Shown in pieces: positions 1 through 64,000 of a DNA stretch of 64,000 nt (its first letter is position 1; every line of letters starts with the position of its first letter). Source of the stretch: Selaginella tamariscina (Eukaryota > Streptophyta > Lycopodiopsida > Selaginellales > Selaginellaceae); contig PUQB01000809.1 of NCBI GenBank assembly GCA_003024785.1, forward strand, positions 1-64,000, written 5' to 3'. A program made the translations under genes and the position numbers. The notes beneath the pieces are model-generated. The model did no database searches, was not told the origin of the DNA, and saw nothing but the letters and a program-made list of their open reading frames with translations.

Positions 1-2624
1 TGAGCACAGGCCAAACCGTTGGTGGTGTTGGAATTCGTGACCGAAGAATTTTGCCGTTTGGCCGCGTGAAACACCCTGAATCTTTTGGGCAGAACCACAT
101 CATCTGTTGTACATACTCCTCATTCCCCAAGGCATCAATGTACATTCGTTTTCCATAGAATCCTGGTGCTGGCACTCTGCTTGGATAACCGATTGGTTTT
201 CCACACAGAGCAGTTCCTTCCTGATTCATCCCCAAACACTTAACCTTACTGGATGCTCCGATTCGTCTGATGGCCCACTCTGTTTGAGCAATCTCTCTCT
301 CCGAAACCTCTTCGAACCTTAACCTCTTTCTCCTGTTGTTTTGGACCACCCGCTCTGTGTACTCTACATCATGTCTGTGTGAACGTCGAGCATCAGACTG
401 TTCTGTGTGACTGTTCTCCTAACAGTTTGCACTCGAACGTTAGTGGTACACGTGAACTCCGGGCTGGTCAAGTGTTCCTCGCCTTCCACCAGATTATAAT
501 TGTTGATGGAGATACACTTTTCCCCTCAGAGAGTTTGCGTTGCACTCGTTTCAACAGAGTTTCCTTCGAAGGCCCTGACCCTGTATACCTCCCTTCTATT
601 GCCGCTTTCACCTTCGCACTCTGCATAACTGCATCGGTGAGGTCTAACATTGTCGCCTCCAGCAGTGGTACTCTTTTGGCCAATCTTGCTCTTCTTGCTC
701 TCGCGTGAATCACTTCAGCATTGTTTGTAGTTGGAACGCTCGCGAGTCCTTCTTCTGTCATGTCTCCCAGTTCCGCCATGGAGATGTGGTCCTCATGCCT
801 GATCCACCAAGACAGCCATGTCTTCAAAGCTCGAATGTTTGACGCTCGTCCTTCCCAAAAAGACTCGAGAATTGCCAGTTGTTCTTTCTTAGATTGTTCA
901 TTCAGTGCTGCAGGCCAGGCACGAGCAAGCTTCATGTGTTCTTCGCGATGTTCTTCTGCGATCCATTTCTTTGTCACCTGACGCACGGATTGCATAAAGT
1001 GAAACAGACAGCTTCTTTCCCTCCCTTTCATCTTTGCTCCGTTGTTGAATACTTGGCGCAAGGCTATCCATATCGCTCCAGCCTCATCCGACATGAAACC
1101 AGCAAAGTTGACATTCTCCAAACCCTGCTTCTTACAAACCTCTAGCATTGTGTTCAAGAACTTCAGCACTGCAACATTATCTTCGCGGCACATATCTGCG
1201 TAAGCTATAGTCACCATGGATCTGACACTGCAAGAGAGCGTTAGATAACGAAGATTAGAAAGTGTTATGAAGAGTTTTACAACTTACAATGGGTCATAAA
1301 GGTGTATTCCAATTGTCGCCCAGTCTGGTATGCGGTGCGTGTGGTCCAGAAACAACCCATTGATCATGAAGGTCTCCTCCACTTTGACACCTTCTGATGT
1401 ACTCAACTCCTGAACCCGGTCCCTCAACTGTCATTTTGAAGATCAGAGGCTGCTCCTCAGCACCATGCAGTTCCATCCCTGGAACATGTATGACGTGAAT
1501 GAAAGGTATTGGCAGCTTTGTCTTCAGCTCCAGAAGACCCTCGTAACCCTCTCTAAAGTGTGTCTCCTTCTGTCTTGATTGTGTAATCCAGTCCCGAGTC
1601 CTAAAGAAAAGGTCACGTCAGTGTGTAGAGATCTAAAAAAAATACCTTCGATGGTTTGTTAGAGGTTCAAGTTTTGAGAGTAAACCAGTGTACGAGACTT
1701 CTCCTTCTTCCTTGAAAAGTTCTTCAAAGATGAGCTCACGCGCGGCTTGAAACTCAATCACTCGTTGATTGGTTCGCGGACTGCTCTTTACCACGTTGCT
1801 GACACTAGATCTGGCTCGCTGAACGTTTGAAGCTGACACTGAGGGGCTGACTGGATGCTGATGAACACCTCTGTGAATGAACAACCTTGTAAAAGAAATG
1901 TCGTCTGGCAGAATGTAGTACACATAAGCCGGACAAGTGTGCACCAGCAATGGCTCCTCTCCACAATGCTTACATTTTATGCCTATTACTTTGCCTGTCT
2001 CAGTTGTCTTTGCCTTCTCCACAGCACCCTTGAAGTGACATTCATTTGCTTTCTTCTCAAAAGCCAAGTAGGGGCAGTAGGATTGATGCATTGGAGATGT
2101 CCGACACATGAACTTCGACTGACTCGCGCCGGAACATGCCAGTGTGTTGTGCTCGGGTGTGTCCAATGGTAGCAGCCATCCTTGCGATTCATCCCCGAGT
2201 ACTTCTCTGTGCTTTCTGTCTTAGGGGGAAGTTCGAAAATGACATTTCCATTGTATATCTGCGGTAGTTCAGAGACTCGTTTAACTTCAGACGAACCAAT
2301 GAGATCCTTCCCTATCCTACATTTGTCTGCTCTTAGAAGACACACCAGCATGGATTCCTCACGCTCCTCTGTCCGCAACCTGAACAACGGGCCCTTTGCC
2401 GGGCACAATGTGTAAAAGACAAACTGGTTTGATGCATTGCCTTCTGGTAACAACTCCACATCTTCTCCAGAACTCGCAGAAACTGACATCAATTGAACCA
2501 CATGTATACTGAACCAACAAGGAATGTTGAAAGCAATGTGAAGATCATGTTCAAACACAAAAGCATTTCCATCTTCATCGACTGGGAAATCTTTGTCAAT
2601 GCCTTCATAGGTAACTCTGGCCAT
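1..2624 (-). pseudogene. Mutator-like (MULE) transposase, partial, interrupted frame
   Basis: The N-terminal block (from the Met codon at 2624) leads into a zinc-binding stretch with CKHCGE, a further Cys and an end reading HRGVHQHPV, like the WRKY/GCM1-type fingers of MULE transposases. A DDE-type core follows: a candidate first Asp in FLDHTH (about 1340), a second in FMSDEAGAIW (about 1085), then CLFHFMQSV and TNNAEVIH, which fits the MULE C/H and Glu positions. One intron is likely near 1595-1645 (GTATTT to TTTAG). Another sits near 1215-1290 before the block starting MVTIAYADM. The zinc-finger block changes frame near 2080. A change ahead of the first Asp is shared with copy 2, so it may be splicing. 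The C-terminus runs past base 1. It would cut and join element ends in the nucleus. Confidence 0.68.
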
Positions 2625-3110
2625 GACAACGCAAGGAGAAAGCTCGGTGGTTTAGGAAAGCAAAGCAAAAGATTAAACACACTTTCTCTTACCAAAAAAA
2701 AATTACAATCGTTAACAATAAACGTGAATACACGTTTGTATATAATTAATTCTATGCTGCCCAGTTCACAGTGTTCTTAATGATGTCCTCTCTAGTATCA
2801 CCGATTTAATTTAATTTCTACCTTTTATGATTTGAAATATCTTCACATTTACCAATTATTCACATATTTTAAAATAAACCCTAAATATTAATGTCACATT
2901 TATTCCGTAGGGTTCACTGTTTTCATTGCGGCTAGGGTTTTTTGGTAGATAGGGTTTACTGTTTCCATTGCGGCTAGGGTTCTTTCAATCTCAGATCTGT
3001 TTCCACTGCGGTAGATCCAGAGGGTTTCTTAATCTCAGATCTCAGAGTTACGGTTTCCACTGCGGCGCCATCCATTTCGACTCGATTCGTGCAGCGCCCA
3101 AGTATAACAA
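2625..3110. promoter_or_regulatory. Shared divergent leader between the transposase and ParB-methyltransferase genes
   Basis: This gap separates the two divergent genes and must hold both promoters. From about 2915 to 3075 a word close to GTTTCCACTGCGG recurs four times beside AGGGTTT, giving an irregular repeat of about 40 bases. A tiny upstream frame, MEISVPI, lies at 3110-3133 just before the first exon-like unit ends at CACAAG/GTATG (3170). The 2700-2900 part is plain AT-rich DNA. Copy 2 keeps a shorter, decayed version near 41115-41560. No TATA box can be assigned with certainty. Confidence 0.45.
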
Positions 3111-4105
3111 TGGAGATTTCTGTGCCGATTTAGATTCTCGGCACCATCCTGCTCAGCCGGCGGCCACAAGGTATGTGTAATTTCTGTATTTTATGATTTG
3201 CTGCTCAAAGTATTTCTTTTTCCAGAGATATAGGGTCTTCTTATTTGTGCCGACTGAGAGCAACGGCACCATCCTGGTTCAGTCGGCAAACACAAGGTAT
3301 CGTCGATTTATTTATTTTTTTCCTTGCGGCTCAAGTATACGTGTCACAATGTTTTTTTTTCAGAGTTAATGGGTCTTTCCATTTGTGCCGACTGAGAGTG
3401 ACGGCACCATCCTGGTTCAGTCGGCAAAAACAAGGTATTTTCGATTTGTTTTTTTTTGCTTTCTGGCTCAAGTATTCGTATCACAAGGTTTTTATTTTCA
3501 GAGTTAATGGGTCTTCCCATTTGTGCCGACTGAGAGTGACGGCACCATCCTAGTTCAGTCGGCAGCCACAAGGTATGTTCGATATATTTATTTTTTGCTT
3601 TCTGGATCATGTATTCGTATCACATTGTTTTTTTTCAGAGTTAATGTGTCTTCTCATTTGTGCCGACTGAGAGTGACGGCACCATCCTTCTTCAGTCGGC
3701 AGCCACAAGGTATTTTGAATTTGTTTATATTTTGCTCTGCGGCTCAAGTATCCGTATAACAATGTTTTTTTTCAGAGTTATAGTGTCTTCCCATTTGTGC
3801 CGACTGAGAGTGACGGCACCATCCTTCTTCAGTCGGCAGCCACAAGGTATTTTGAATTAGTTTTTTTTTTCTTTGCGTCTCAAGTATTTCTTTTAAAACA
3901 GTTAATGGGTCTTCCCATTTGTGCCGTCTGAGAGGGACGGCACCATCCTATCTCAGTCGGCACCATTATCTCTTCTGTGCCGTCTGACAGAGTCGGCACA
4001 AACTATCTCAGTCGGCAGGTTTTTTCTTCTACATCTCTCTGCCGACTGAGAGGGTCGGCAGCATCTAGCTTGAGTCGGCAGCCACAAGGTTAGTCATCTT
4101 TGTTT
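3110..4105 (+). repeat. Tandem array of about 137-bp hairpin, exon-like units
   Basis: Units recur at 3249, 3387, 3525, 3662 and 3799 (steps of 137-138), then in shorter forms at 3923, about 3976 and about 4035. Each core runs from TGCCGACTGA to its exact inverse TCAGTCGGCA about 20 bases later, a ready stem-loop, with GACGGCACC in the loop. Each core is preceded by a T-run ending in CAG and followed by CACAAG/GTAT, so each looks like a small exon with acceptor and donor. The last unit's donor (about 4087) faces an acceptor at 4155 just upstream of the ATG. The cores could be alternative 5' non-coding exons, protein-binding iterons, or both. Confidence 0.8.
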
Positions 4106-4165
4106 GTTTTTTTATTTTGACTCCTCATCAATTGACTTGTGTGTTTACTTTCCAGAGTTCCCAAA

Positions 4166-7100
4166 ATGGTGAGAGCTTCAAAACGTCTACTAGAGACTGC
4201 GCCTGATGAAGAGCCACGGGAAGAGAAGAGGATATCGAAGCAGAAGCGAGGCAAGAGAGGAGAACCATCTAATGTACCAAAGGAGGATCCTCCAGTGACT
4301 CAGTCTGGAGTAGTAGCAGTTGAGCAAGAACAGCCTCCACCAACAATCACAGATTTCCCGGAGAGCTCGTCGCAGTTGCCTCCTTCATCCGCTGAGGTTG
4401 CAGTCCTGAACGAGCAAGTGCAGATGACAGAGGCAGCTGAAGCTAGCGAGGACGACTTGGAGGAGGCAGTCAGCAAAAAGAGAGGCCGCGGGAAAGCTGA
4501 TTCAAAAGGCAAGAAGGCGAAGAGCGATAAGGAGCCGAAGGAGTTATACAGCATACCGGCGAGCCTGCATTTGGAGAGCTCAGCAAACCTGCTCGACAAA
4601 ATTACTATCAAGGGACTTGGTGATCCTCCTGATGTGCCCATCTGCAGAATACATTCCAACGAGGTGGTTCGACGAGTGAACCCAGGGGACTTGGACAGGC
4701 TGGTGTCATCGTTGAAGAAGGCTGGTTATCTACGCAACACGGCCTTGTTCATTCTGTCCATCGGAGATCGACTCACTGCTGAGGAGCTATCGGAGCTGTC
4801 GAAGGACACGATTCAGTACGAGCAGCACCGGTCTTTCGAGCAAGCTCTTACTCAGCCGGAGTACAAACAGTGGGCTTCAAGGCTCTCAAACAGGAAGTTT
4901 AGCTGCTGGGACGGGAACCATAGGCTACAGGCTTTGCAGAAGCTGTACCGAGAGGATGCAGAGGACAACCAGCGATGGGCTATTCGCGTTCGATCGAGTT
5001 TCATCTCCACGGAGAACCTCGACATTCTTCAACTGGTTTCGATGTTCCAATCGATTAACATGTGAGTATTTTCTTTTCTTTTTGTTAAGAGTTTAGACTT
5101 ACAGTTTCGTTGAACAGATCTTCAGCAACATCTGTGGAAACAACGCTACCACATATTCTCCTCGCTGTAAAGGCGGTCTGCACTAGTACAGAAGGAACTC
5201 AGAAAATCCTCGAGTCACTCACGGAGGTTGATCGTCTTGAGGTGCGGAAGTGGAAGGAGAGTTCATCAGGAAAGACGGCTTGGCATCCTCTTCCGAACCT
5301 GATCTGCGCAAAGATACTTTTCAAGGTAACCTCCGATTTAATTTATAGGAAAGAAATTTTTAACTTGTTCTATGTGCAGAACGAGATCGACGATGATCTC
5401 GACAGAGCAGTCACCAGTGCTAAGGGCAATCCACAGGTTGAGGTGAACCTGAAGCAGCTAGTATACAAGAAGCATGACAAGCGTATGCACAAGTTCCTCT
5501 CCATCATAGACCCAGACTTGGGGGAGGAGTGGTTCCAGAAGGTGACAAACATCTCTCATAAGCAGTGTCGCTGGATGGGCATTGAGAAGCTGTATGCGAT
5601 GTCAAGGGCGAAGATTCCAAACATGCTGCGACTCCGATACCTCAACAAGCTCACCCGTCTCGAATCCAAGGCAGAACAACAGACACTTGGGCTACCGGGC
5701 ATGCAGGACAAAGAGTGGATCAAGTGGTTCACCTTGGACTTATATTGGAAGGCTGTGCGCGAGGAAGCCATTCAGATCCTTAAGGGGTTGCGAGAGGATG
5801 GTGAAGAAGTTGGAACGGATGTCGACTTCATGAGCTGGTTTGACGAGATGAGAATTCGGAGCAAGTGCCTGGTCTTTCAGCCCTTCCATGACTGCATACG
5901 GTTCACTTATTCGATGGAGCCGAATGAGTTTCTGGAGCGTGAGGAATCTGCGCGTCGGATGATATGGAGGTAAGCTTTCAATCCAGCATTGCTACTGTCT
6001 GACTTTGTGTTGCAGGTTCATACTGGCGAAGCAAATGACACCGTCCCATACGATGAAGCTGTGGACAGATCATACAAGCGAGCCTCACATGTGGTCGAAG
6101 AGCAGAGGAGCTCTAACACCGTTCGAACGGGAGCATGTTCCATTCTGGCTCGACTGTCCGTCGCAACAGCCACCAGCTTGGGAGAGCACACTATTCGACA
6201 TGCACGCCAATGATCTACCAGCGATTCTTTGGGAGCCAGAAGAAGTAGAGGCTATCAAGAAGAGCAAGATGAAGAAGACGGTGCGGAAGACAACTACACC
6301 TGCAAAGGGATCGGGAGCGGGACCAAGCTCTTCTACAGCACCTCCGCCAGCATTCGACTTTACAATCAATGAGGTACAGCCACTTGTAGCTAGTTTGGAC
6401 ATCAAGGACGACCTGATGACCTTCATCCCGACCCTGGCTGCATCCCGTGGATCCTACGACCTAGCTGTGTGCGACATGGAGGAGATGAGCAGGTCTTTCT
6501 TCGAGCCAGGTGCTTCCCAGACAGAGGTGTACACCAAGCTCCGAGAACAGGTTGACAGACTACATACGGTTGAGTCACAAACGTTGTTCCAGGAAGTGGT
6601 AGGTGAATACGGCTTCAACCTCATCATCCTCGACTTGCCCAATGAGCTTGTATATGGAGGTGCTAGCATCAACAAGGACATTGTGCAGCTAGATCCGGTG
6701 AAGTTTGAGGAGGCCTTGCAGTTCAGTGGAATGCACTTGGCAGCGAGTGGTTTCATGGTCGTCTTCGCGAGTTCTCCTTCTGTTTCGGCGGTGATTCAGG
6801 CGGCTGCAGTAATCAACTTGGAGGTTGCAGGGACTTACAGCGTCTACCGTGCACGAGGCTGGGGATACCGTGACAAAATTAAGGTAAGCTAGCTATTCAA
6901 GTTCAAGTTTAACTTGGTCTATGTGGCAGGATAACTTGTTAGTTCTCTTGGTGCTGCAAAGCTCTGAGAAGAAGTCGAAGAGGCCAAACCCTCTGGCGTT
7001 GACGAACACGATCCTCGTCGACACTGCCGACCGTTATCAGGAGGCTTGGTAAGGAAGTGCTTTGCTATGTTTATCCTAATGGAAGATTGTGCAGGATTAT

Positions 7101-7392
7101 GATTCAACCGAAGAGTGTTCGACTCATGCAGCTTTTGATCGAGCGTCTCAGTAGACCTGGCGACCTAGTCTGGGATATTGGTTCCGGAACCGGGTCATCA
7201 TTGTTAGCTGCCGTCGAGCTCGGAAGGAATATTATAGGAACCGAGAAGAGTTTCGAACTCTCTAGGTTGGCAACAAACAAGCTTGCAGAGAACATTAGAC
7301 CAGAAGAGTTACCTACTCAAACACCTCCACGTCCAAGCGTAACTGGTGGTTCGAGAACTGCAGCTTTACTTAAGATGAAGAAGAAACTTTAG
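4166..7392 (+). CDS. ParB-like domain fused to N4/N6-type DNA methyltransferase, intact six-exon gene
   Basis: Exons are 4166-5061, 5118-5325, 5380-5969, 6016-6883, 6930-7048 and 7095-7392. All five introns are GT-AG and 46-56 bases. The exons total 2979 bases, one open frame of 992 codons plus stop. Residues 1-130 are charged, with a basic tract KKRGRGKADSKGKK that could be a nuclear signal. Residues about 150-300 resemble ParB/Srx folds (R-H-S-N-E start, CWDGNHRLQAL at about 247-257). Residues 300-640 match nothing I recognise. After a Lys/Pro/Ser linker (about 645-675) comes a methyltransferase domain in permuted order: motif IV region LIILDLPNELVYG (DLPN at 771-774), then QPKSVRLMQLLIERLSRPGD and motif I DIGSGTGSS (921-929) with GRNIIGTE. 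That order fits beta-class N4/N6 enzymes. ParB-methyltransferase fusions occur in bacteria and phages. DLPN in place of the [DNS]PP[YFW] tetrad may mean lost or altered activity. The start is the first ATG after the acceptor at 4155. Confidence 0.8.
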
Positions 7393-7408
7393 CTAATGTA
7401 TATTGAGT

Positions 7409-7414
7409 AATAAA
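7409..7414 (+). terminator. Poly(A) signal candidate AATAAA
   Basis: A perfect AATAAA lies 17 bases after the stop of the ParB-methyltransferase gene and still inside the element. It is a plausible cleavage signal, but AATAAA is common in AT-rich DNA. Confidence 0.4.
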
Positions 7415-7479
7415 TTAAGCTAATATAAAAAAAAATTAAAAAGAAATACAACAGTTTTAATAGAATTCTTTTTTGCCGA

Positions 7480-7586
7480 CTGAGGCCAATACTGCCGACC
7501 AGAAAGAATATTCCAAAATATTCTAGAATATTCTTGAATATTCGAGCCCAGGCCTCCTGGGCCCCAAGCCTCCAAAATGGCGACAC
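7480..7586. repeat. Right terminal region of the composite element
   Basis: TGCCGACTGA, the stem word of the internal array, appears once more at about 7475, followed by TGCCGACC. Next come four AATATTC words and then a GC-rich end closing in CCTCCAAAATGGCGACAC at 7586. The inverse of this order opens copy 2 at 37081-37190, which fixes the boundary. Stem words near an end are what a transposase or ParB binding region could look like. Confidence 0.65.
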
Positions 7587-8164
7587 TCGAGAGGAGAGAT
7601 TATCTGTATAATGCTCAAGTTAATAAATGTGATAAATTAAAGGTATTACGTTACTCAGAATATATATGCTCAACATCTCCTTATTAGCTTAAGCACACTA
7701 TAATCCATGGTTTAAAATATATGAGAGGATAACATAATGATTTAATTTAACTGTGCTTAAAATGTAGGAGGGCATCATGTAGTAAGAATCGAAAGCGTAA
7801 ATTTGTACTAGTAATACTATACATAATATACAAAATCCTATATAGTCAATCTTTCATATCTTTTTATAAATTTATATAGTTAAGTAAATAATTAGTACTA
7901 TTATTAAAAGTTTATTATAATTATATATTTATAATTTTGTAATTGCTTTAAGCTTCAGAAAATATACATTCTCTTGCATTTTTATTAATTGTGACTTTAT
8001 CAACGCTTTTTGACATGCACCCATATCGAATAGATTAACATTTATAAAACATGCTAGGCCTTTTTAATTGGGAGACCATGTTTTCTTTAGGCATTGATGT
8101 CATTTCAATCTCCTCTCACCACCTTGTTTTAAGTCAAAAAGAGTGTTATAATTATGTACTTGTG
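7587..8164. other. AT-rich intergenic stretch, no gene seen
   Basis: I see no coding frame, repeat family or RNA gene here, only AT-rich sequence between the composite element's end and the chromovirus target duplication. Confidence 0.5.
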
Positions 8165-9562: not shown

Positions 9563-10019
9563 TGTTTTGGTGCGGTGAGCGTGGAATGCTAATGTGCATT
9601 GTTTATGAATGAGCCTGAGCGTTCTTTTTGGAAAAGGTTCTTTCAACTTTCAAGGTCTCTTCAAAATCAAATATTGAAGTATTGTTTTGAGCATTCACAT
9701 GGGTTTACTTTAAATAACAAGTTGGTGGTCATTCAAACGTGGGGATTTGAAGAATTCAAGTTTGAAATACAACTTGCAATTGCGAATGTGCTTTTAAGGA
9801 GGTGAGAGGTGAATCAAGCATGGATCAAGATTTAGCACCCATGTGATAGTGGTGATATTGATGAGGCACATCATTTGTGTATGGATCTTCCATACATTAA
9901 TCTTCACATTGCAGTCGTGACAATATCTCATTGGATTCATCCAAGTCTTTGGGAATCTTATGGAGTGTGGAGTTTGGTGAAGCAAGAATATTGCGTGCGT
10001 TGTGAGAGGTTCATTGTGT

Positions 10020-10440
10020 GCTATGTGGCAAGTCAACTTTGATGGAGCATACAAGCCAAAGAAGCAAGTTGCAAGTGTAGGGGTCATGCTAACTGATCTA
10101 GTAGGGAAGCAAATCAAAATTTCTGAGCCAACTTCTAGTGCTAATTCTTGCAATCAAGCGGAGTATTCTGCATTGATTCGAGGATTGAAGGAGACAAGGA
10201 AACAAGGAGCAAAAAACGTGGTTGCGATGGTGACTCTAAGTTGGTGGTGAACTAAGTGCAAGTCAGTGGAAAGTGAGAAAGCCTGAGTTGTTGGTGCTTT
10301 CTGAGCGTGTTTAAGATCTCAAAAGGTGATTCAACACTTTTGAGATAAAGCACGTTCCTCGAAGAGAGAATCTAGAGGCTGACGAGCTTGCACAGAGGGG
10401 GCATTGCCTCGTCAAAGTGACGTCTTTTCATCTATTTATA
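10020..10440 (+). pseudogene. RNase H-like segment upstream of gag in the nested Ty3 element
   Basis: The stretch contains WQVNFDGAYKPKK and CNQAEYSALIRGL, then EADELAQRG farther on. That is the D...E...D pattern of the archaeal-type RNase H found as an extra domain in plant Ty3 Tat elements. Those usually carry it after the regular RNase H in pol, whereas here it precedes gag. The copy is broken. Confidence 0.6.
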
Positions 10441-10477
10441 ATCAGGTGAAACCTTTGTCATTTTTACACTTGTAAAG

Positions 10478-11222
10478 ATGGTGTCTATTCCAGTATATCA
10501 TGGTCTGCAAAATGAGGATGCAGATCGGTATTTACGTTCATTTAAGCGAGCATGCATTTTGAATAGAGATAGAAGTTCTACCACTTGGGCAGAACTTCTA
10601 CCATCCTTTTTGGAGATGGAGCATTAAAGTGGTTTGAGCATCAAACTAGTGATGTTAAGGCTAGTTGGGAGAGGTTGAGTGAGGCTTTTCTAGGAGAGTA
10701 TAGAAAGCCAGAGACATTGGATGAGGTCATGAAGCAATTGGATTAATTGAGGCAAAGTGAAGAAAGAGTGTCAAGGCATTCAGTGAGCATGTTGGAACTC
10801 CAATGTAAGCTACGAAGTGGTTTGGGAGTGGAGGTCTCTAAAAGGACGGAGGATGCATCCAAGGAGTCCAAACCAGCTGTCGGATAAATGCATTGGTGTT
10901 CAACAAGTTTCTTACTGGATTGAATCCGGTATTACGCCAAAAGGTAAAGAATAAAGAGCCTAGTAACTTGCAGGAAGCTGTGAAGATTGCTATGAAAAAG
11001 GAGGCACTTCTCATGGATACTAATGAAGCCTCAATCTCAACGGTAGAACCACAACCGAGGTTGGCACCAATTCTACAAACACCCAAAGTTGTGATTCCTG
11101 CAACCGTTCCAGTCAAATCATCTAAATTGGAGAGTAGTATTGCCAAATTAACTTCAGATCTCAACGAGCTCAAGTTGCATTTGCTTCAAGCAAAGTAAAG
11201 GACCAAAACCTCCAAGGCCACT
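10478..11222 (+). pseudogene. Gag N-terminal part of the nested Ty3 element
   Basis: The start MVSIPVYHGLQNEDADRYLR and later words such as EYRKPETLDEV are typical of plant Ty3 Gag capsid. A solo LTR interrupts the gene at 11223, and the zinc-knuckle part resumes after 11780. It is a fossil with several breaks. Confidence 0.7.
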
Positions 11223-11780
11223 TGTCAAGCCACGATCCAGGAACCAGGAAGCGAGTAGGATTCCGAGAACAGGAAGGCTTGACTCAGGAGCAGGACCGAG
11301 AGCAGAACAGGAACTAGGAACAAGAACAGGAACAGGAACATGACGGATCCAGGAGCAGGACAGGATCAGAATAGGATCCGGAGCAAGACAGGAACCGGAT
11401 AGGATCTAGGAGGACAGGAACAAGATAAGAGCAGGAGGTAAGGAGGCAAGACAAGAACAAGACAAGAACAAGGAACAAGAATATCGTAGAATGACTGTGT
11501 TGATAGTAACTGATTGTATAAACAATTAGGTCGGAGCTTTATGCTCACAACTCCAAGCTAATCTAGTCATGAGTCTAATCTAGTCATGAGCTAAGAATAG
11601 TGTCCCTTATCCTCTAGGCATATCCTGTAGCATATCCTCTAGGCATATCCTATAGGAATATCCTATAGGTATATCTGTAGGAATATCCTGCAGCATATCC
11701 TGTAACCCGTATCCTGTATCCGAAATCCTGCATCCTGTATCCTGTATCCGGAAACCTGTATCCTGCATCGGGTTGTGACA
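11223..11780 (-). repeat. Solo LTR of the chromovirus family inside the nested gag
   Basis: The sequence from TGTCAAGCCACGATCC to GGTTGTGACA matches the LTRs at 8170-8631 and 21418-21838. It is flanked by CCACT (11218-11222) and CCACC (11781-11785), a nearly perfect 5-bp target duplication. No internal region is present, so it is a solo LTR left by recombination. It also carries ACAGGA-rich and ATATCCTGTAGG-rich tracts. Confidence 0.85.
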
Positions 11781-12620: not shown

Positions 12621-13189
12621 GGTTAATGCTAAGAATTATTAAAAAAGGGGAGATGACTATTGGTCATAAGTTAAGACGAGTGACAATAGCCATCAAGGAG
12701 AACACAACAAAGGTTGTAGATGAAGAGTCATCTTCCAGTGAGGAATATGATCTCAACAGTAATAGTGAGGTGACAACCTCAATTCTGAGCAAGCAAAGGG
12801 AGAAGGAATTGTGTGCCCTCAAGGCAATTCCTAAGGTTGCTATGCGTGTGAGCCTCACAATAGACATGAGGTCTATGATCAACAACTCACCCAGGAGCAG
12901 GAGGCTCAAGGAGGGTATAGGGGTTGTTGAAAAGGGGCAGGAAGCAAGTAGTGGCAACAAGTTTGAGGCAAAGGAAGTGGAGCGACGAGCTCTTTTGGAG
13001 AAGATGCTTAGTTCAAGTTTGACTCCTGAGGAGAAGGAGCAATACATGAGCATGCTATTGAAGTTCCCCAAGTTGTTTGTGACATCATACGAGGAGCTTC
13101 GTCAAGTAAATATTGTGCAACATGAGATCCCACTTAAATCAGGTATGAAGGGAGTTGCATAAAAGGCTTATAGAATGGGTCCTTTGAAA

Positions 13190-26440: not shown

Positions 26441-26509
26441 TCAATTTAATTCAATATTTCTTTTGTACACATATATAAACACAATAAAAAATTTACATAT
26501 ACACGTACA

Positions 26510-36099: not shown

Positions 36100-37080
36100 C
36101 TATGACAACAAAGGACTTGATAGCAGTTCCATTCTGGTTAGCGTGCACTAAAACCCGTCCGCTGGTGCATTTATATGGGATGTCGTGCCAATTCGCAAAC
36201 CTTAAAGAACCAATCCTCTGCTCCCGTGCCTAGGGTTTTGTTTCGATCTACATGCACCAGACCCCAAACTCCAAACCCCAAGCCCGAAACCCAAAACCCA
36301 AAACTTGAAACCCCAAACCCCAAACCCCAAACCATAAACCATAAACCAAATCCCCATCCTCCCATTTGAGCCGATCAAGGTTGACTGCGTTTAAGCATTG
36401 TTATCTCGATATCTTGCTGTGTGATGTTAGTTTAGCAGTGGGAATGGTTGTTTAAGGGCATTGGAGCATGGCTGCACGCACCCATGGCATCTATCTTCGC
36501 TTTGGAGCCTCCCTCCTCATGCGTGTGCGACCCTACATTTGTCTTGTGTGGGGTTCATGCGACGAGCGTGTGGGAGTTGAGTGACTTGTGCATGAAGGCT
36601 CCACATGTTGTTGTGCACAGGCCTGTGGCATCGGTTTTTGTGACGGAGCCTCTGTTCCTCTGCGTGTGTGAACGCTCTTCTTTTCTTGATTGGTTTCCCT
36701 TATAAATATTGTATATATAATTACATGAATATAAAGTAATAATAATTTATTATAGTGGCATAAAGTTGATAAGCTGGAAACCCATGTTGTATTATGCTTT
36801 CTTTATCTACTTTTTAATTCTATGTTTATTCTAAAGTTCACTTGCTGCCTCCACGGTTTGTTAATGTAGTATGTGATATACCTCAGAGTTTATTTATTTT
36901 ATATTTAAAGGCCTGGCACAATCTTGTTAAATCAATATATAAGGAAAATTAGATCAATTTAATTTAACACAAATGAATCGATTTAAAGTTGGGGTTTTCA
37001 GATGGATGGCCCAGATCAATCATGTTTAGGCCCTAGGTTAGCGCGCAATCAACTCGATGGATAAGGCACGCGGGGTGTGA
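36100..37080. repeat. Dispersed repeat R, copy 4, interrupted by composite element copy 2
   Basis: It parallels 29395-30318, including the CCCCAAACCCCAAACC run at about 36310-36335 and the TAGCGCGCAATCAACTCGATGG word. It stops at GGGGTGTGA (37072-37080), where the element terminus GTGTCGCC begins. Confidence 0.75.
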
Positions 37081-37261
37081 GTGTCGCCATTTTGGAGGCT
37101 TGGGGCCCAGGAGGCCTGGGCTCAAATATTCTAAAATATTCTAGAATATTTTAGAATATTCTTTCTGGTCCAGTCAACAAAAAAAAAATTCTAGTAAAAC
37201 TGTTGTATTTCTACCTTATTCTTTTTTATATTAGCTTAATTTATTATTTAATACACATTAG

Positions 37262-40200
37262 CTAAAGTTTCTTCTTCATCTTAAGTAAAGCTGCAGTTCT
37301 CGAACCACCAGCTAGGCTTGGACGTGGAGGTGTTTGAGTAGGTATTTCCTATGGTCTAATTTCTCTACGAGCTTGTTTGTTACCAACCTAGAGAGTTCGA
37401 AACTCTTCTCGATTCCTATAATATTTCCTTCCGAGCTCGACAGCAGCTAACAACGATGATCCGGTTCTGGAACAATATCCCAGACTAGGTCGCCATGTCT
37501 ATTGAGACGCTCGATCAAAAGCTGCATGAGTCGAACACTTTCGGTTCATCATCCTGCACAAACTTCCATTAATAAACAAAGTAAAGTACTTCCTTACCAA
37601 GCCTCCTGAAAACGGTCGACAGTATCGACGAGGATCGTGTTCGTCAACGCCAGAGGGTTTTGGCCTCTTCGACTTCTTCTTAGCACCAAGAGAACCAAAC
37701 AAGTTATCCGCCACAAGTTAAACTTGAACATGAATAGCTAGCTTACCTTAATTAAGTGTAAGTCCCTGCAATCATTGCAGCCGCCTGAATCACCGCTGAA
37801 ACAGAAGGAGAACTCGCGAAGATGACCATGAAACACTCGTTACCAAGTGCATTCCACTGAACTACAAGGCCTCCTCAAACTTCATTGGATCTAGCGCACA
37901 ATGTCCTTGTTGATGCTAGCACCTCCATATACAAGCTCATTGGGCAAGTCAAGGATGATGAGGTTGAAGCCGTATTCACCTACCACTTCCTGGAACACCG
38001 TTTGTGACTCAGTCGTATGTAGTTTGTCAACCTGTTGTTGGAGCTTGGTGTACACCTCTGTTTGGGAAGCACCCAACTCGAATGCTCCTCCTCCATATCG
38101 CACACAGCCAGTCGTAGGATCCACGGGATGTAGCCAGTGTCGGGATGAAAATCATTAGGTCGTCCTTGATGTCCAAACCAGCCACAAGTGGCTGCACCTC
38201 ATTGATCGATTGCCGGCGGAGGTGTTGTAGAAGAGCTTGGTCCCGCTCCCGATCCTTTGCAAGTGTAGTTGTCTTATGCACCATCTTCTTCATCTTGCTC
38301 TTCTTGATAGCCTTCATCCGGCTCCCAAACAATTGCTGGAAGATCATTGTCATGCACAACAGTGAGCTCTCCCAAGCTGGTGCTGTTGCGATGGACAGTC
38401 GAGCCAGAATGGAACATGCTCCCGTTCGAACGGTGTTAGAGCTCTCTGTTCTTCGACCACATGTGAGGCTCGCTTGTATGATCTGTCCACATCTTCATCG
38501 TCTGACGGTGCCATTTTCTTCTCCAGTATCAACCTGTAACAAAGTTAGTCAGTAGCAATGTTGGATGAAACTTACCTCCATATCATCGACGCGCAGACTC
38601 CTCACGAGAAACTCATTCGCTCCATCGAATAAGTGAACCGTATGCAGTCATGGAAGGGCTGAAAGACCAGGCACTTGCTCCGAGTTCGCATCTCGTCAAA
38701 CCAACTCATGAAGTCAACATCTGTTCCAACTTCTTCACCATCCTCTCACAGTCCCTTAAGGATCTAAATGGCTTCCTCGTGCACAACCTTCCAATATAAG
38801 TCCAAGGTGAACCACTTAATCCACTCTTTGTCCTGCATGCCTGGTAGCCCAAGTGTCTATTGTTCTACTTGGATTCAAGACGTGAGCTTGTTCAAGTATC
38901 TGAGTCACAGCATGTTTGAAATCTTCGCCTTTGACATCGCGTATAGCTTCTCAATGCCCATCCAACGACACTGCTTATGAGAGATGTTCGTCACCTTCTG
39001 GAACCACTCCTCCCCCAACTGGGTCTATGGTAGAGAGGAACTTGTGCATACGCTTGTCATGCTTCTTGTACACTAGCTGCTTCAGGTTCAGCTCAAGTTG
39101 TGGATTGCCTTTAGCACTGGTGACTGCTTTGTCGAGATCATCGTTGATTTCGTTCTGCACATAGAATAAGTTAAAAACTTCTTTCCTATCAATTAAATTG
39201 AATGTTACCTTGAAAAGGATCTTTGTGCAGATCAGGTTTGGAAGAGGATGCCAAGCGTCTTTCCTGTTGCACTCTCCTTCCACTTCCCACCTCAAGATGA
39301 TCAACCTCTGTGAGTGACTCGAGAATTTCTGAGTTCCTTCGGTACTAGTGCAGACCGCCTTTACAGCGAGGAGAATATGTGGTAGTGTTGTTTCCATAGA
39401 TGTTGTTGAAGATCTGTTCATTGAAACCGTAAGTTTAGACCCTTAATAAAAAGAAAAAAATACTCACATGTTTATCGATTGGAACATCAAAACCAGTTGA
39501 AGATTGTCGAGGTTTTCTGTGGAAATGAAACTTGATCAAAAGTGAATAGCCCATTGCTGGTTGTCCTCTACATCCCCCGGTAGAGCTTCTGCAAAGCTTG
39601 TAGCCTATGGTTCTCGTCCCAGCAGCTGAACTTCCGGTTTGAGAGCCTCGAAGCCCACTGTTTGTACTCTGGCTAAGTAAGAGCTTGCTCAAAAGATCGG
39701 TGCTGCTCGTACTGAACCGTGTCCTTCGACAGCTCTGATAGCTCCTCAGCAGTGAGTGGATCTCCGATGGACAGAATGAACAAGGCCGTTTGCATAGATA
39801 ACTAGCCTTCTTCAACGATGACACCAATGTCCAAGTCCTTGGGTTCACTTGTCGAACCACCTCGTTCGAATGCATTCTACAGATTGGCACATCAAGAGGA
39901 TCACCAAGTCCCTTGATAGTAATTTTGTCGAGTAGGTTCGCTTAGCTCTCCAAATGCAGGTTGGCCGGTATGTTGTATAACTCCTTTGGCTCCTTATCAC
40001 TCTTCGCCTTCTTGCCTTTTGGATCAGCTCTCCTGCGGCCTCTCTTTTTGCTGACTACTCCTCCAAGTTGTCCTCGCTAGCTTCCACTGCCTCTATCATT
40101 TGCACTTGCTCGTTCAGGACTGTAACCTCAGCAGATGAAGGAGGCAACTGCGACGAGCTCTCCGGGAAATCTGTGATGGTTGATGGAGGCTGCTCCTGCT

Positions 40201-40355
40201 CAACTGGTACTACTTGAGACTGATTCACTGGAGGATCCTCCTTTGCTACATTAAATGGTTCTCCTCTCTTTTCACTTGTGCTTCGATATCCTCTTCTCTT
40301 CCCATGGCTCTTCATCAGGCGCAGTCTATAATAAACGTTTTGAAGCTCTCACCAT
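37262..40355 (-). pseudogene. ParB-methyltransferase fusion, decayed copy 2
   Basis: It aligns in order with the intact gene at 4166-7392 from the ATG equivalent (40355) to the stop equivalent (37262). The segment around 37910-38120 keeps GEYGFNLIILDLPNELVYGG, so the DLPN form of motif IV is shared between copies rather than private to one. Stops, small indels and lost codons occur throughout, for example in the ParB part (39435-39890), the middle (38975-39421) and the exon 5/6 region (37490-37720). The product cannot be full length. Confidence 0.78.
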
Positions 40356-40436
40356 TTTGTAAACTTTGGAAAGCAAACATACAATCAATTGATTAGGAGA
40401 CAAAAGGAAAAATAAAAATCAAAGATGACTAACCTT

Positions 40437-41115
40437 GTGGCTGCCGACTCAAGATAGATGGTGCTGACCCTCTCAGTCGGCACAAAAAAGTAGAAGAGCA
40501 AATCCGAGATAGGTTGGTGGTGCGACCCTCTCAGATGGTATTGAAGAGATAATGTAAGAAGTATGCCGACTGAGCTAGGATGCGCCGTCCCTCTCAGACG
40601 GCACAAATGGGAAGACCTTTAACTCTAAAAAAAAAAAAAAAAAACATTGTGATATGGATACTTGAGCCGCAAAGTAAAAAATAAAGAAATTGAAAATACC
40701 TTGTGGTTACCAACTGGAAGGTGCGTCTCTCTCATTCAGCACAAATGGGAAGACCCTTTATCTCTGGAAAAAAAAATTATGATATGGATATTTGAGCAAA
40801 TCATAAAATAAAGAAATTGAATAGACCTTGTGGTGCCGATGGTGCCGTCTCTCTCACACGGCACAAATTCTAAGACCCTTTAACTCTAAAAAATAAATTA
40901 TTTGAGCTGCAAATCATAAAATAAAGAAATTAAATAGACCTTGTGTCTGCCGATTGAGCCAGGATGGTGCCGTCTCTCTCACATGGCACAAATGGGAAGA
41001 CCCTTCAACTCTGGCATAAAAAAAAAAACACATTGTGATATGGATATTTGAGCCACAAATTAAAGAAAGAAATTGCACAAACCTTGTGGCCGCCGATTGA
41101 GCAGGATGGTGCCAA
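40437..41115 (-). repeat. Hairpin, exon-like repeat array of copy 2
   Basis: Reverse-oriented versions of the 3110-4105 units appear at about 40440, 40560, 40700, 40830, 40950 and 41090. Stem words are decayed and the array is shorter. The flanking CCTTGTGG (donor side) and AACTCT(A/G)-A-run (acceptor side) are still recognisable. Confidence 0.72.
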
Positions 41116-41600
41116 CAATCTAAATTAGCACAAAATCTCGATTGATTTACTTGAGTGTTGCACAATCGACTCGAAATGGATGGCGCCGCTCCTCAAGCCC
41201 TTTGGAGGAGATTTCAGATATCAGATCTGTGATAAAAAAACTTCTAGCAGCAATGGAAATAGTAAACCCTATCTACCAAAAAAACCCTAGCCGCAATGAA
41301 AAAGTGAACCCTACGAATAAATGTGACATTAATATTTAGGTAATATTAAATATGTGAATAATTGGTAAAGTGAGATATTTTCAAATTATAAAGGGTAGTA
41401 ATTAAATTAAATCGGTGATACTAGAGAGGACAGCATTAAGAACACTGTGAGTTGGGCAGCGTAGAATTAATTATATACAAAAGTGTATTCACATTTATTA
41501 TCAATGATTATAATTTTTTTTGGCGAACGAGAATGTGTTTAATCTTTTGCTTTGCTTTCTTAAACCACTGAGCTTTCTCCTTGTGTTGTCATTGCCAGAG

Positions 41601-43983
41601 TTACCTATGAAGGCATTGACAAAGATTTCCTAGTCGATGAAGATGGAATGCTTTTGTGTTTGAACATGATTTTCACTTTGCTTTCAACATTCCTTGTTAG
41701 TTCAGTATACATGTGGTTCAATTGATGTCAGTTTCTTGCGAGTTTTGGAGAAGATGTGGAGTTGTTACCAGAAGGCAATGCATCAAACTAGTTTGTTTTA
41801 TACATTGTGCCCGGCAAAGGGCCGTTGTTCAAGTTGCGGACAAAGGAGCATGAGAATCCATGCTGGTGTGTCTTCTAAGAGCAGACAAATGTAGGATAGG
41901 GAAGGATCTCATTGGTTCGTTTGAAGTTAATGAGTCTCTGAACTATCGCAGATATACAATGAAAATGTCATTTATGAACTTCCTACAAAGAAAGAAAGCA
42001 CAGAGAAGTACTTGGGAATGAATCGCAAGGATGGCTGCTACCATTGGACACACCCGAGCACAACACACTGGCATGTTCTGGTGCGAGTCAGTCGAAGTTC
42101 ATATGTCGGACATCTCAAATGCATCAATCCTACCTGCCGCTACTTGGCTTTTGAGAAGAAAGCAATGAATGTCACTTCAAGGGTGCTGTGGAGAAGGCAA
42201 AGACAAATGAGTCAGGTAAAGTAAAAAGGCATGAAATGTAAGCATTGTGGAGAGGAGCCATTGCTAGTGCACACTTGTCCGGCTTATGTGTACTACATTC
42301 TGCCATACAACATTTCTTTTACAAGGTTGTTCATTCATAGAGGTGTTCATCAGCATCCAGTCAGCCCCTCATGTCAGCTTCAAACGTTCAGCATGCCAGA
42401 TCTAGTGTCAGCAACGTGGTAAAGAGCAATCCGCAACCAATCAACGAGTGATTCAGTTTCAAGTGCACGTGAGCTCATCTTTGAAGAACTTTTCAAGGAA
42501 GGAGGAGAAGTCTCGTACACTGGTTTACTCTCAAAAACTTGAACCTTTAACAAACCATCAAGGTATTTTTCTTTAGATCTCTACACACTAACATGACCTT
42601 TCTTTAAGACTCAGGGACTAGATTACACAATCAAGACAGAAGGAGACACACTTTAGAGAGGGTTACAAGGGTCTTCTAGCTGAAGATAAAAGTTGCCAAT
42701 ACCTTTCATTCACATCATACATGTTCCAAATGGAGCTGCATGGTGCTGAGGAGCAGCTCTGATCTTCAAAATGACAGTTGAGGGACCGGGTTCAGGAGTT
42801 GACTACATCAGAAGGTGTCAAAGTGGAGGAGACCTTTATGATCAATGGGTTGTTTTGGACCACACGCACCGTATACAGACTAGGCGACAATTGGAATACA
42901 CCTTTATGACCCATTGTAAGTTGTAGAACTCTTCATAACACTTTTCTAATCTTTGTTATTTATGCTCTCTTACATGTCAGATCCATGGTCACTATAGCTT
43001 ATGCAAATATGTGCCGCGAAGATAATGTTGCAGTGCTGAAGTTCTTGAACACATGCTAGAGGTTTGTAGAAACAGGGTTTGGAGAATGTCAACTTTGCTG
43101 GTTTCATGTCGGATGAGGTTGGAGAGATATGGATAACCTTGCACCAAGTATTCAACAACGGAGAAAAGATGAAAGGGAGGGAAAGAAGCTGTCTATTTCA
43201 CTTTATGCAATCCGTGCATCAGGTGACAAAGAAATGGATTGCAAAAGAACATCGCGAAGAACACATGAAGCTTGCTCGTGCTTGGCCTGCAGCATTGAAT
43301 GAACAATCTAAGAACAACTAGCAATTCTCGAGTCTTTTTGGGAAGGACGAGCGTCAAACATTCGTGCTTTGAAGACATGGTTGTCTTGATGGATCATGCA
43401 TGAGGACCACATCTCCATGGCGGAACTAGGAGACATGACAGAAGAAGGACTCGCGAGCGTTTCAACTACAAACAATGCTAAAGTGATTCACGCGAGATGT
43501 AGTGCGAAGGTGAAAGCGGCAATATAAGGGAGGTATACAAGGTTAGGTCCTCGAAGGAAACTCTGTTGAAATGAGTGCAACGCAAACTCTCTGAGGGAAA
43601 AGTGTATCTCCATCAACAATTATCAATCTGGTGGAAGACAAGGAACACTTGACCAGCTCGGAGTTCACGAGTACCATAACGTTTGAGTGCAAACTATTAG
43701 GAGAACAGTCACAGGAATAGAACAGTCTGATGATGTAGAGTACACATAGCGGTGGTCCAAACAACATGAGAAAGAGGTTAAGGTTCGAAGGGTTTTGGAG
43801 AGAGAGATTGCACAAACAGAGTGGTCCATCAAATGAATCAGAGCATCCAATAAGGTTAAGTGTTTTGGGAATGAATCAGGAAAGAACTACTCTGTGTGGA
43901 AAACCAATCGGTTATCCAAGCAGAGTGCCAGCACCAGGATTCTATGGAAAACGAATGTACAGTGATGCCTTGGGGAATGAGGA
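41601..43983 (+). pseudogene. MULE transposase, decayed copy 2
   Basis: It starts after CATTGCCAG with AGTTACCTATGAAGG, matching 2616 downward in copy 1. The Met codon of copy 1 reads ATT here, and the sequence around it looks like a 3' splice site, so the true start may lie in an upstream exon. It retains CKHCGEEPLLVHTC, LFIHRGVHQHPV, a second-Asp block FMSDEVGEIW (about 43105) and CLFHFMQSV. The Asn-Asn-Ala block corresponding to TNNAEVIH reads with Lys in place of Glu. Several stops are present. The C-terminal end GYPSRVPAPGFYGKRMYSDAL (to about 43975) is better kept and equals copy 1 near 128-195. Confidence 0.7.
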
Positions 43984-61560: not shown

Positions 61561-62009
61561 CGATGGCAACTCCTAACTGCATTCGTGAGAGTGTTAGGTG
61601 GTGGCAACAACATAAAGATATTGACCAAAATGATTTGATTAATCAAAGAGTGATGACTTAAACAAAATGAGGAGATTTCTCTATATGGTTAAGGCAAAAG
61701 TAATTACAAAAAGATTAACATATTGATAAGAAAATGATTTCATTTATAATTATGTTTGAAAGTATTTTTTAATTATTGTAAAATATTTTTACAATGGAGA
61801 TTAATATGAATATTTTCAGATATTTTAGGAATATTCCTTACTAAGTAAGGTTAATGAAGGATTAATTTGTTAATTAATTAATATTTAAGATGTAATTATA
61901 TGTTAATTAAATAATTAATTAATAATTAAAACTTAAGTATTAATTAGCAATTTATTTTATATTCTTATTTTCATGTATCATGCCCATTTTAGTTACAACA
62001 TGCATATCT
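61561..62009. repeat. AT-rich tail of duplicated unit B
   Basis: It is near identical to 58200-58590. It ends at GCATAT, where the truncated composite element copy 3 begins. Confidence 0.65.
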
Positions 62010-63588
62010 AAATGGCTTCCTCGCACACAGCCTTCCAATACAAGTCCAAGGTGAACCACTTGATCCACTCTTTGTCCTGCATGCCTGGTAACCCAAGTGT
62101 CTGTTGTTCTGCCTTGGATTCAAGATGAGTGAGCTTGTTCAAGTATCGGAGTCGCAACATGTTTGAAATCTTTGCCTTTGACATCGCGTACAGCTTTTCA
62201 ATGCCCATCCAGCGACACTACTTATGAGAGATGTTTGTCACTTTCTGGAACCACTCCTCCCCTAACTCTGGGTCTATGATAGAGAGGAACTTGTGCATAC
62301 ACTTGTCATGCTTCTTGTACACTAGCTGCTTTAGGTTCAGTTCAAGCTGTGAATTGCCTTTAGCACTGGTGACTGCTCTGTTGAGATCATCGTTGATCTC
62401 ATTTTGCACATAGAATAAGTTAAAAACTTCTTTCCTATCAATTAAACTAAAGGTTACCTTGAAAAGAATCTTTGTGTAGAAGAGGATGCCAAGCCGCCTT
62501 TCTTGTTGCATTCTCCTTCCACTTCCGTACCTCAAGATGATCAACCTCCGTGAGCGACTCGAGGATTTCTGAGTTCCTTCAGTACTAGTGCAGACTGTCT
62601 TTATAGCGAGGAGAATATGTGGTAGTGTTGTTTCCATAGATGTTAATGAAGATCTGTTCAATGAAACTGTAAGTCTAGACTCTTAATGAAAAGAAAAGAA
62701 AGTACTCACATGTTTATCGATTGAAACATTGAAACTAGTTGAAGATTGTCGAGGTTCTCTGTGGAGATGAAACTCAATCGAACGTGAATAGCCCATTGTT
62801 TGCATCCTCCCGGTAGAGCTTCTGCAAAGCCTGTAGCCTATGGTTCTCGTCCTAGCAGCTAAACTTCTGGCTTGACAACCTCGAAGCCCACTATTTGTAC
62901 TCCGGTTGAGTAAGAGCTTGCTCGAAAGACCGATGCTACTCATACTGAATCATGTCCTTCGACAGCTCATATAGCTCCTCATCAGTGAGTGGATCTCCAA
63001 TAGACAAAATGAACAAGGCTGCCTTCTTCAATGATGACACCAGCTTGTCCAAGTCCCCTGGGTTCACTCGTCGGACCACCTCGTTCGAATGCATTCTACA
63101 GATTGGCACATTAGGAGGATCAACAAAGTCTCTTGATAGTAATTTTGTCGAGTAGGTTTGTTGAGCTTTCCAAATGCAGGTTGGCCGGTATGCTGTATAA
63201 CTCCTTCAACTCCTTATCACTTTTCACTTTCTTGCCTTTTGGATCAGCTTTCCCACAGCCTCTCTTTTTGCTGACTGCCTTCTCCAAGTCATCCTCGCTA
63301 AAAGAAGAAAGAGCTTCAACTACCTCTGTCATCTGCACTTGCTCTTTCAGGACTGCAACCTTAGCGATGAAGGAGGCAACTGCGACGAGCTCTCCAGGAA
63401 AGCTGTGATGGTTGATGGAGGCTGCTCCTGCTCAATTGGTACTACTTGAGGCTGAGTCATTGGAGGATCCTCCTTTGTTACATTAGATGGTTCTCCTCTC
63501 TTTCCTTGCTTGTACTTCGATATCTTCTTCTCTTCCCGTGGCTCTTCATCAGGCACAAGCTCTTGTAGACGTTTGAAGCTCTCACCAT
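62010..63588 (-). pseudogene. ParB-methyltransferase fusion, copy 3, ParB and middle regions only
   Basis: The ATG equivalent is at 63588-63586. The charged N-terminus and KKRGCGKADPKGKK tract are kept, while the ParB block is damaged by small indels near 62683-63060. The middle region (62218-62410) retains NEINDDLNRAVTSAK and HKFLSIIDPELGEEW, and MGIEKLYAMSKAKISNMLR follows at about 62150-62208. It ends in what is exon 3 of the intact gene, before the methyltransferase domain. Confidence 0.78.
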
Positions 63589-63659
63589 TTTGCAGACTCT
63601 GGAAAGCAAACACACAAGTCAATTGATTCAAAGACAAAAGAAAAAACAAAAACCAAAGA

Positions 63660-64000
63660 TGATTAACTTTGTGGCTGCTGACTCAAGCTAGATGGTGCCG
63701 ACCCTCTCAATTGGCACAGAAAAGTCGATGAGTGAAACCTGCCGACTAAGACCGGTTGGTGCTGATCCTCTCAAACGGCACAAATGAGATGATGTATGAT
63801 GTATGCCGACTGAGCAAGATGGTGATGTCTCTCTCAGACGGCACAAATGGGAAGACCCTTTAACTTTGGCATAAAATAAAAAACACATTGTGATATGGAT
63901 ACTTGAGTCGCAAATAAAAAAAACAGAAATTGAACAGACTTTGTGGCTACCGACTAAGCTAGGATGGTGCCGTCTCTCTCAGATGGCACAAATGGGAAGA
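63660..64000 (-). repeat. Hairpin, exon-like repeat array of copy 3
   Basis: Inverse units with TTTGTGGCTGCTGACTCAAGC, GTGCCGACCCTCTC and CTCAGACGGCACAAATGGGAAG occur at about 63668, 63740, 63800 and 63945 and continue past the window. It lies beside the ParB-side gene start, as in the other copies. Confidence 0.75.

Follow-up and report, generated by a model that had tools for sequence, protein, structure and literature searches.

A DNA methyltransferase gene with a possible ParB-like part in a Mutator-like transposon of Selaginella tamariscina, with an octamer as its candidate target

What is an intact, intron-bearing gene for a bacterial-type DNA methyltransferase, possibly fused to a ParB-like domain, doing in a plant genome? 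Our analysis of a 64,000-nucleotide stretch of Selaginella tamariscina DNA (contig PUQB01000809.1, positions 1 to 64,000; here called the window) shows that this gene, which occupies positions 4166–7392 only, forms the right half of a DNA transposon 8.4 kb long, the left half of which is a divergently transcribed transposase gene; the mobile unit as a whole runs from before base 1 of the window to position 7588. From the sequence comparisons described here we think it probable (roughly 60%) that the gene serves as accessory gene to a Mutator-like transposon with two genes and that it encodes a sequence-specific self-marking protein, with the octamer GCCGACTG as the candidate target.

The initial annotation had assigned the gene to a recently active plant mobile unit, and both parts of that assignment are borne out by the ends, the target duplications and the copies of the element. 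Searches of the plant's own genome (300.7 Mb in 1391 contigs; the 40 or 150 best candidates were scored, so all copy counts are lower bounds) find at least 37 full-length copies at 99–100% identity, window copy included, among the best 40 of 886 candidates in a DNA search; the other three of these 40 are a partial copy (99%), a copy at 94% and a copy split into two pieces. Identity among 30 compared loci stops at window position 7588 or within a few bases of it, and the left boundary, at GGGTCTCGGCG (L031:4983), gives the copy in contig C893 a length of 8441 bp (the left part is missing from the window copy because the contig begins at window base 1). The ends are short, imperfect inverted repeats. 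Members of the Mutator superfamily duplicate about 9 bp of target DNA, and 12 of 22 copies read here are flanked by exact 9-bp duplications, 3 by exact 8-bp duplications and 3 by duplications that agree at 8/9; among the remaining comparisons one agrees at 7/9, two are poor and for one no left end could be located. The window's two other copies, described at first as decayed, are indeed so (Table 1). With a decayed copy as query, 39 further places are found at 87–91% identity to the query (best 40 of 898 candidates), none of them among the loci of the intact-copy search; these identities are no guide to age, since among five places inspected the coding sequence departs from that of the window gene by 2.0–6.0% in four and by 0.2% in one.

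The transposase has the motifs LDHTHR, GFMSDEAGAIWIALRQVF, SCLFHF and TTNNAEVIHARARR, followed beyond the window by a C-terminal SWIM-like finger. We call the element "Mutator-like" only, because the transposase pieces scanned have no match to the Pfam MULE-type (Mutator-like element) model and the finger segment, taken from the C893 copy, scores 18.9 bits with the SWIM profile, just below the cut-off of 19.6. Its frame in the window is interrupted by small length differences relative to the C893 copy, and the C893 and C313 copies have frame breaks as well, which may be real or assembly noise. A search of 5.8 billion sequences with the C-terminal piece, in which 8000 candidates were scored, gave nothing at E≤0.001. 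A KDZ transposon was set aside (9-bp duplications here, 8-bp in KDZ elements), as were a retroelement identity and, given the introns, the CG/CHG decay described below and the dispersed copies, bacterial contamination.

Re-splicing confirms the gene as first drawn: the six exons join into 992 codons and a stop with no internal stop, and all five introns are GT-AG (56, 54, 46, 46 and 46 bp). GNHRLQAL lies at residues 250–257, DLPN at 771–774 and DIGSGTGSS at 921–929, and the nuclear-signal-like tract that had been noted is a basic N-terminal tract present in both this family of elements (family 1) and a sister family (family 2, below). When 30 copies are compared the window gene has the majority base at every column; 15 of the 30 have the gene without indel or early stop, 14 are short of 1–5 coding bases and one has an inserted base.

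The assignment of the C-terminal part to the bacterial-type permuted N4/N6 methyltransferases stands. It exceeds the cut-off of Pfam profile PF01555 (N6_N4_Mtase; 35.8 versus 26.7 bits, over profile positions 164–219 of 221 only), which is the only Pfam match of the protein (there is no chromodomain match). Exon 6 alone matches PHROG phage DNA methyltransferase families, with values to 3.8e-12, and NCBIfam methyltransferases; hhalign aligns the C-terminal 302-residue segment with five phage methyltransferases at a probability of 97.9 over 68 columns, and the best match of the whole protein in the PDB is MboIIA (E 0.0021). The order of the motifs is the permuted one, with S-adenosylmethionine (SAM) motif I (DIGSGTGSS, residue 921) after motif IV (DLPN, residue 771), and by eye GFNLIILDLPN ... 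HLAASGFMVVFASSPSVSAVIQAAAVINLEVAGTYSVYRA tracks motif IV and the next segments of an aligned methyltransferase family. For residues 130–960, none of the 8000 candidates scored from 5.8 billion sequences reaches E≤0.001, and a pattern search of viral contigs gave no match.

The ParB half of the proposed fusion has fared differently: the N-terminal part is suggestive of a ParB-like domain, and its similarity stays below significance. The assignment rests on two stretches conserved between the families, PDVPICRI...VRRVNPxDL..L..S.KKA.GYLRNT..FIL and KF.CWDGNHRL..LQKLY. Of four segments compared with Pfam, three found nothing and one, 58 residues around GNHR, reached ddrB-ParB with 13.7 bits against a cut-off of 27.6 (E 0.071); the sister family has no Pfam ParB hit. 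Against a bacterial ParB-methyltransferase family hhalign places DGNHRLQALQKL on the ParB box DG(x)LRLKAA at P 0.027–0.065, an alignment that 5 of 200 column shuffles equal, and with a single query sequence it picked a different stretch (P 0.11). A regular expression for this DG box finds the query once, and it also finds 4 of 20000 shuffles and 29 of 32 bacterial proteins; one for the first ParB box missed the query and matched just 9 of the 32 bacterial proteins. Our own model of the ParB domain of Wolbachia phage WO-type proteins did not place the query above shuffles (all the top rows listed were shuffles), the ParB segment matched phages and plasmids only at E 3 to 9, and the PDB searched with ParB segments gave nothing ParB-like. 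Profile comparison, on which the initial annotation had staked the fusion, is thus divided, significant for the methyltransferase and not for ParB.

A second family of elements indicates that the arrangement is old. In a PF01555 profile search of the same genome all 150 scored matches (best 150 of 739 candidates) exceed the cut-off; about 108 of them have the profile span 165–220 and the 106-residue open frame seen in the match on contig C1004, and these are apparently one family of about a hundred similar copies. Six further matches were opened, two of which belong to family 2 (L079, L081) and four to family 1 (L076, L077, L078, L080). Family 2 was read from the C1004 copy (L075, C1004:511700–516100) and its left flank (L082), and scores 39.8 bits with PF01555. 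Its protein is 49%, 48% and 72% identical to that of family 1 in exons 1, 4 and 6, respectively, exon 6 being the most conserved exon compared, and 60% identical by tblastn in the middle region, where the family-2 copy changes frame. At conserved residues 24/29, 34/43 and 14/21 four-fold sites are changed in exons 1, 4 and 6; the two families are deeply diverged and near-saturated at synonymous sites. DLPN, WDIGSGTGSS and CWDGNHRL are nonetheless unchanged, the family-2 gene is open and alignable in exons 1, 4 and 6 (with a frame break near 1986 in the L075 copy), and the family-1 intron positions coincide with alignment breaks. The family-2 transposase lies upstream of the methyltransferase gene and head to head with it, as in family 1; its main stretches are 56–76% identical to those of its family-1 counterpart, and a short tail 45%. 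Since the order is shared and both genes can be aligned across the families, the plan of two genes is an old one, and neither gene has been lost.

Has the protein been selected, as the open frame had first suggested? We compared the window gene, as reference, with seven other family-1 copies (one nearly identical to it), counting each distinct substitution once, dropping positions within six columns of a gap, and setting the counts against a base- and context-matched neutral deal of 1000 simulations; the copies share history. Among substitutions other than C>T and G>A, 49/124 are synonymous versus 25.9 ± 4.5 under neutrality, a number that none of the 1000 simulations reaches, whereas the C>T/G>A class, an internal control, has no excess (99/264 versus 96.9 ± 7.8; 423 of 1000). 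The skew is found in the N-terminus (10/21 versus 4.6), the ParB-like region (11/23 versus 4.9) and the middle region (14/42 versus 7.9), as well as in the substitutions common to at least five of the seven copies (20/42 versus 10.5; 1 of 1000) and in an overlapping set of five copies or fragments treated with the same gap filter (53/123 versus 26.5). Because the non-deamination substitutions are skewed in this way, we conclude that the protein was selected. The C>T changes are informative in their own right: in the seven copies they occur at 0.070 of CG, 0.062 of CHG and 0.023 of CHH sites, about three-fold above CHH at both CG and CHG, and the values are higher still in the two decayed window copies. 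This bias points to host cytosine methylation of the copies, and so the element has something to escape.

The window holds 18 copies of the octamer GCCGACTG, against 0.56 ± 0.69 (at most 3) in shuffles; 14 are in the intact element part, three in decayed copies and one elsewhere. Thirteen of the 14 lie just upstream of the methyltransferase start, and the 18 octamers of the C893 element are similarly placed, with 2 near the left end, 15 upstream of the methyltransferase start and 1 near the right end. The left-end pair has a spacing of 19 bp in 18 of 21 copies read (in one further copy the end was not found), and three octamers were counted in 37,500 bases made up of the final 1250 bases of each of 30 loci, some of which include other copies. 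In family 2 the 360 bp or so before the gene hold 14 octamers, ten of which form five back-to-back palindromes CAGTCGGCATGCCGACTG, and a further octamer lies close to the right end. Convergent pairs are similarly spaced in the two families, five at 31 bp in family 1 and five at 28–30 bp in family 2, about three helical turns, yet when the upstream DNA of the two families is compared by blastn only short words match apart from the octamer. Arrays of this kind are expected of a site read by an element-encoded protein, which may be either of the two.

Most of the window octamers lie in a tandem repeat whose 137-bp units contain an inverted pair TGCCGACTGA ... TCAGTCGGCA, together with splice-like signals recognised by eye (T-rich CAG/AGTT ... 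CACAAG/GTAT, window 3217–4156), so that the units are possibly duplicated non-coding 5' micro-exons. Array size varies among copies, with 4–9 donor signals among 30 copies in which 1500 bp upstream were read. Folded as single-stranded DNA, two whole units form hairpins with z scores of -5.0 and -3.3, and two other stretches give -5.3 and -2.2. Some units also have an 8-codon upstream open reading frame (ORF; ATG...TGA) with its stop inside the TGCCGACTGA motif. The one GCCGACTG outside recognised element copies, at window position 18014, may be a remnant.

The presence of the same octamer around the methyltransferase gene in two families suggests self-recognition and self-marking. The protein would enter the nucleus, where its ParB-like and middle regions, or the protein together with the transposase, would recognise the GCCGACTG arrays; it would then mark or coat the element at these arrays, most likely by N6-adenine or N4-cytosine methylation. 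Such a mark would tell the element from host DNA, and might keep the element promoter free of host cytosine methylation (compare VANC on VANDAL elements, by another route) or, alternatively, gate transposase binding. The stronger proposal, that this is a plant transposon with its own adenine or N4-cytosine methylation system that evades or resets silencing by 5-methylcytosine, we put forward tentatively and with some doubt; GCCGACTG, which was kept while the other upstream non-coding DNA of the two families diverged, might be the private address of such a system.

Several results weigh against a self-marking enzyme. The motif IV consensus of PF01555-type enzymes is (D/N/S)PP(Y/F/W), and both families have DLPN instead, which lacks the aromatic residue of DPPY/W/F and could mean that catalysis is lost or altered. 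Exon 4 alone matches no family in the PHROG and NCBIfam scans, and the same is true in the sister family. The synonymous skew is marginal in the methyltransferase part, at 14/38 versus 9.2 (57 of 1000) in the seven copies and 14/36 versus 8.3 (25 of 1000) in the five-copy set, and when single copies are read without the gap filter the first has 11/36 versus 8.7, which is not significant, and another 7/16 versus 4.2. Neither Pfam nor hhalign gives a significant sequence match to ParB, the 4.5 kb to the left of L075 have no octamer (the left end of that element was not located), and the octamer could be readable by the transposase alone, or be active in RNA. The deviant motif IV in particular raises the question of whether a catalytically dead methyltransferase fold has been kept as a SAM- or DNA-binding regulator, for anti-silencing or as a transposase cofactor; METTL14 beside METTL3 is a model for such a protein, and its EPPL is a parallel for a deviant motif IV. 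DPPY/W has given way to DLPN in both families, all 7 other family-1 copies read included, and the ParB-like region shows a stronger skew than the methyltransferase part, as a dead enzyme would have it. But the two families, though near synonymous saturation, retain DLPN and its surroundings, no exon compared is better conserved than exon 6, and phage proteins annotated as methyltransferases (by annotation only) have DLPY and DIPY, so the first P of motif IV, at least, is not universal; we regard a dead enzyme as possible and rather unlikely.

Another alternative leaves the methyltransferase out of the recognition altogether: GCCGACTG would be the transposase's own site, at the ends and for autoregulation of the promoter, and the ParB-methyltransferase would act elsewhere or non-specifically, for example as an integration helper, of which maize mudrB is an example. 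The motif pairs 19 bp apart near both family-1 ends are what this predicts, and the transposase is conserved between families about as much as the accessory protein, or more; the concentration of the octamers just upstream of the methyltransferase start, and not at an end, speaks against it, and we doubt that it is the right explanation. That the arrays act in RNA, their micro-exons, hairpins and short upstream ORFs tuning the splicing or translation of the methyltransferase mRNA, is more improbable; the acceptor- and donor-like signals, the ATG...TGA frames that end inside the motif and the four hairpin scores (from DNA parameters) agree with it, but family 2 has the octamer as palindromes in a different layout, and the octamer is also found near element ends. 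Mutator-like elements often carry pieces of host DNA, so ordinary capture of a gene without function for the element, as in Pack-MULEs, has precedent; this is very hard to reconcile with the same gene in the same order with matching intron places in two families near synonymous saturation, or with selection at the protein level. The self-marking accessory protein remains our preferred reading.

Table 1. Features of the window (positions in the 64,000-nucleotide stretch)
Feature	Position	Strand	Remarks
Transposon part in window	1..7588	.	left ~0.7 kb, including the left inverted end, absent
Transposase gene	1..2624	-	Mutator-like by eye (LDHTxR ... GFMSDE ... TTNNxE); exons partly modelled
Tandem repeat, 137 bp x 5.5	3217..3962	+	Tandem Repeats Finder (TRF); contains most window octamers
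13 GCCGACTG octamers	3249..4048	both orientations	five convergent pairs 31 bp apart
Exon 1	4166..5061	+	start, basic nuclear-signal-like tract (residues ~104-126), possible ParB-like region (residues ~145-300)
Exon 2	5118..5325	+	
Exon 3	5380..5969	+	middle region, no known domain; skewed to synonymous change
Exon 4	6016..6883	+	putative catalytic half of methyltransferase; DLPN at residue 771
Exon 5	6930..7048	+	
Exon 6	7095..7392	+	methyltransferase C-half: motif X-like QPKSVRLMQLLIERL and SAM motif I DIGSGTGSS
Right subterminal pair GCCGACTG / GCCGACC	7475..7499	+	19 bp apart
Right terminal inverted end	7567..7588	+	reads GAGTGTCGCCATTTTGGAGGCT inward; left end reads GGGTCTCGGCGAAAAGGAGGCT
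Decayed copy, same element	37079..43983	-	tblastn part 40355-37289; DNA matches reach 43983
Decayed copy, cut by window end	62006..64000	-	tblastn 63574-62005

Elsewhere in the window, ORFs beside the element at 9900–15500 resemble, by eye, pieces of a Gypsy-type retroelement (RNase H-, zinc-knuckle-, reverse transcriptase- and integrase-like), and positions 26001–28000 are very AT-rich (GC 0.194) with a strong AT skew.

If the self-marking reading is true, a working N6-adenine or N4-cytosine epigenetic system would exist in a land plant genome and would be run by a parasite. Plants share in the eukaryotic dispute over N6-methyladenine (6mA). The available text of PMC12695648 describes 6mA in eukaryotes as controversial; here two multi-copy transposon families have a candidate target motif and encode the type of enzyme that 6mA needs, which makes the question testable on long reads.

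The protein can be compared with several known systems. The ParB-methyltransferases of the Wolbachia phage WO type (PF02195 plus PF01555) have the same order, a ParB-like part and then a permuted N4/N6 methyltransferase; the plant protein differs from the bacterial and phage proteins by about 40 residues inserted between its presumed ParB boxes, a long middle region, DLPN in place of DPPY, and a ParB similarity below significance. The bdelloid rotifer N4CMT is likewise a bacterial-type N4/N6 methyltransferase in a eukaryote, but it is a host gene with a chromodomain, whereas the plant gene belongs to a transposon and its product has no chromodomain match. The VANDAL elements of Arabidopsis, which belong to the Mutator superfamily (PMC12730594), encode the anti-silencing accessory protein VANC (PMC10398659) and, as described in the accessible text, combine an accessory protein with changeable non-coding tandem repeats of a short motif; such repeats are also present in the non-coding DNA of the Selaginella element. 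VANC brings about the loss of host marks, and the parts of these sources available to us do not call it a methyltransferase; PF01555 is the one Pfam match of the protein described here. DNA-modifying enzymes are also carried by TET/JBP-bearing DNA transposons of fungi (PMC12730594) and by DNMT-bearing retrotransposons (PMC5890265), with different enzymes and chemistry as far as the accessible text goes.

The closest parallel is in algae, and this is not the first case of its kind, since the available text of PMC12477816 describes the same protein plan in the brown alga Ectocarpus, where the Sola1-1_Ec32 element has a ParB-like plus N4C/N6A methyltransferase accessory gene opposite its transposase, cites green and red algal relatives (Iyer 2011; Petroll 2025), and puts forward the idea that proteins of this sort bind and mark the transposon that carries them. 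In the literature searched we found no land-plant transposon of the ParB-methyltransferase kind, which does not establish its absence from print. By that description, which concerns the plan of the protein, the algal and plant proteins share a length of about 1000–1100 residues, an N4/N6 methyltransferase with a ParB-like part that is only suggestive in the plant protein, and a gene on the strand opposite the transposase of a DNA transposon. It differs in its 8.4-kb Mutator-like carrier with 9-bp duplications in a 300-Mb plant genome, in its two deeply diverged families, and in the octamer array as candidate target, a kind of recognition site that the accessible part of PMC12477816 does not mention for the Ectocarpus element. 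What appears to be new is thus the plant Mutator-like carrier, the two families, the evidence of selection and the shared candidate target, which together extend transposon-borne ParB-methyltransferases from algae to a Mutator-like element of a plant.

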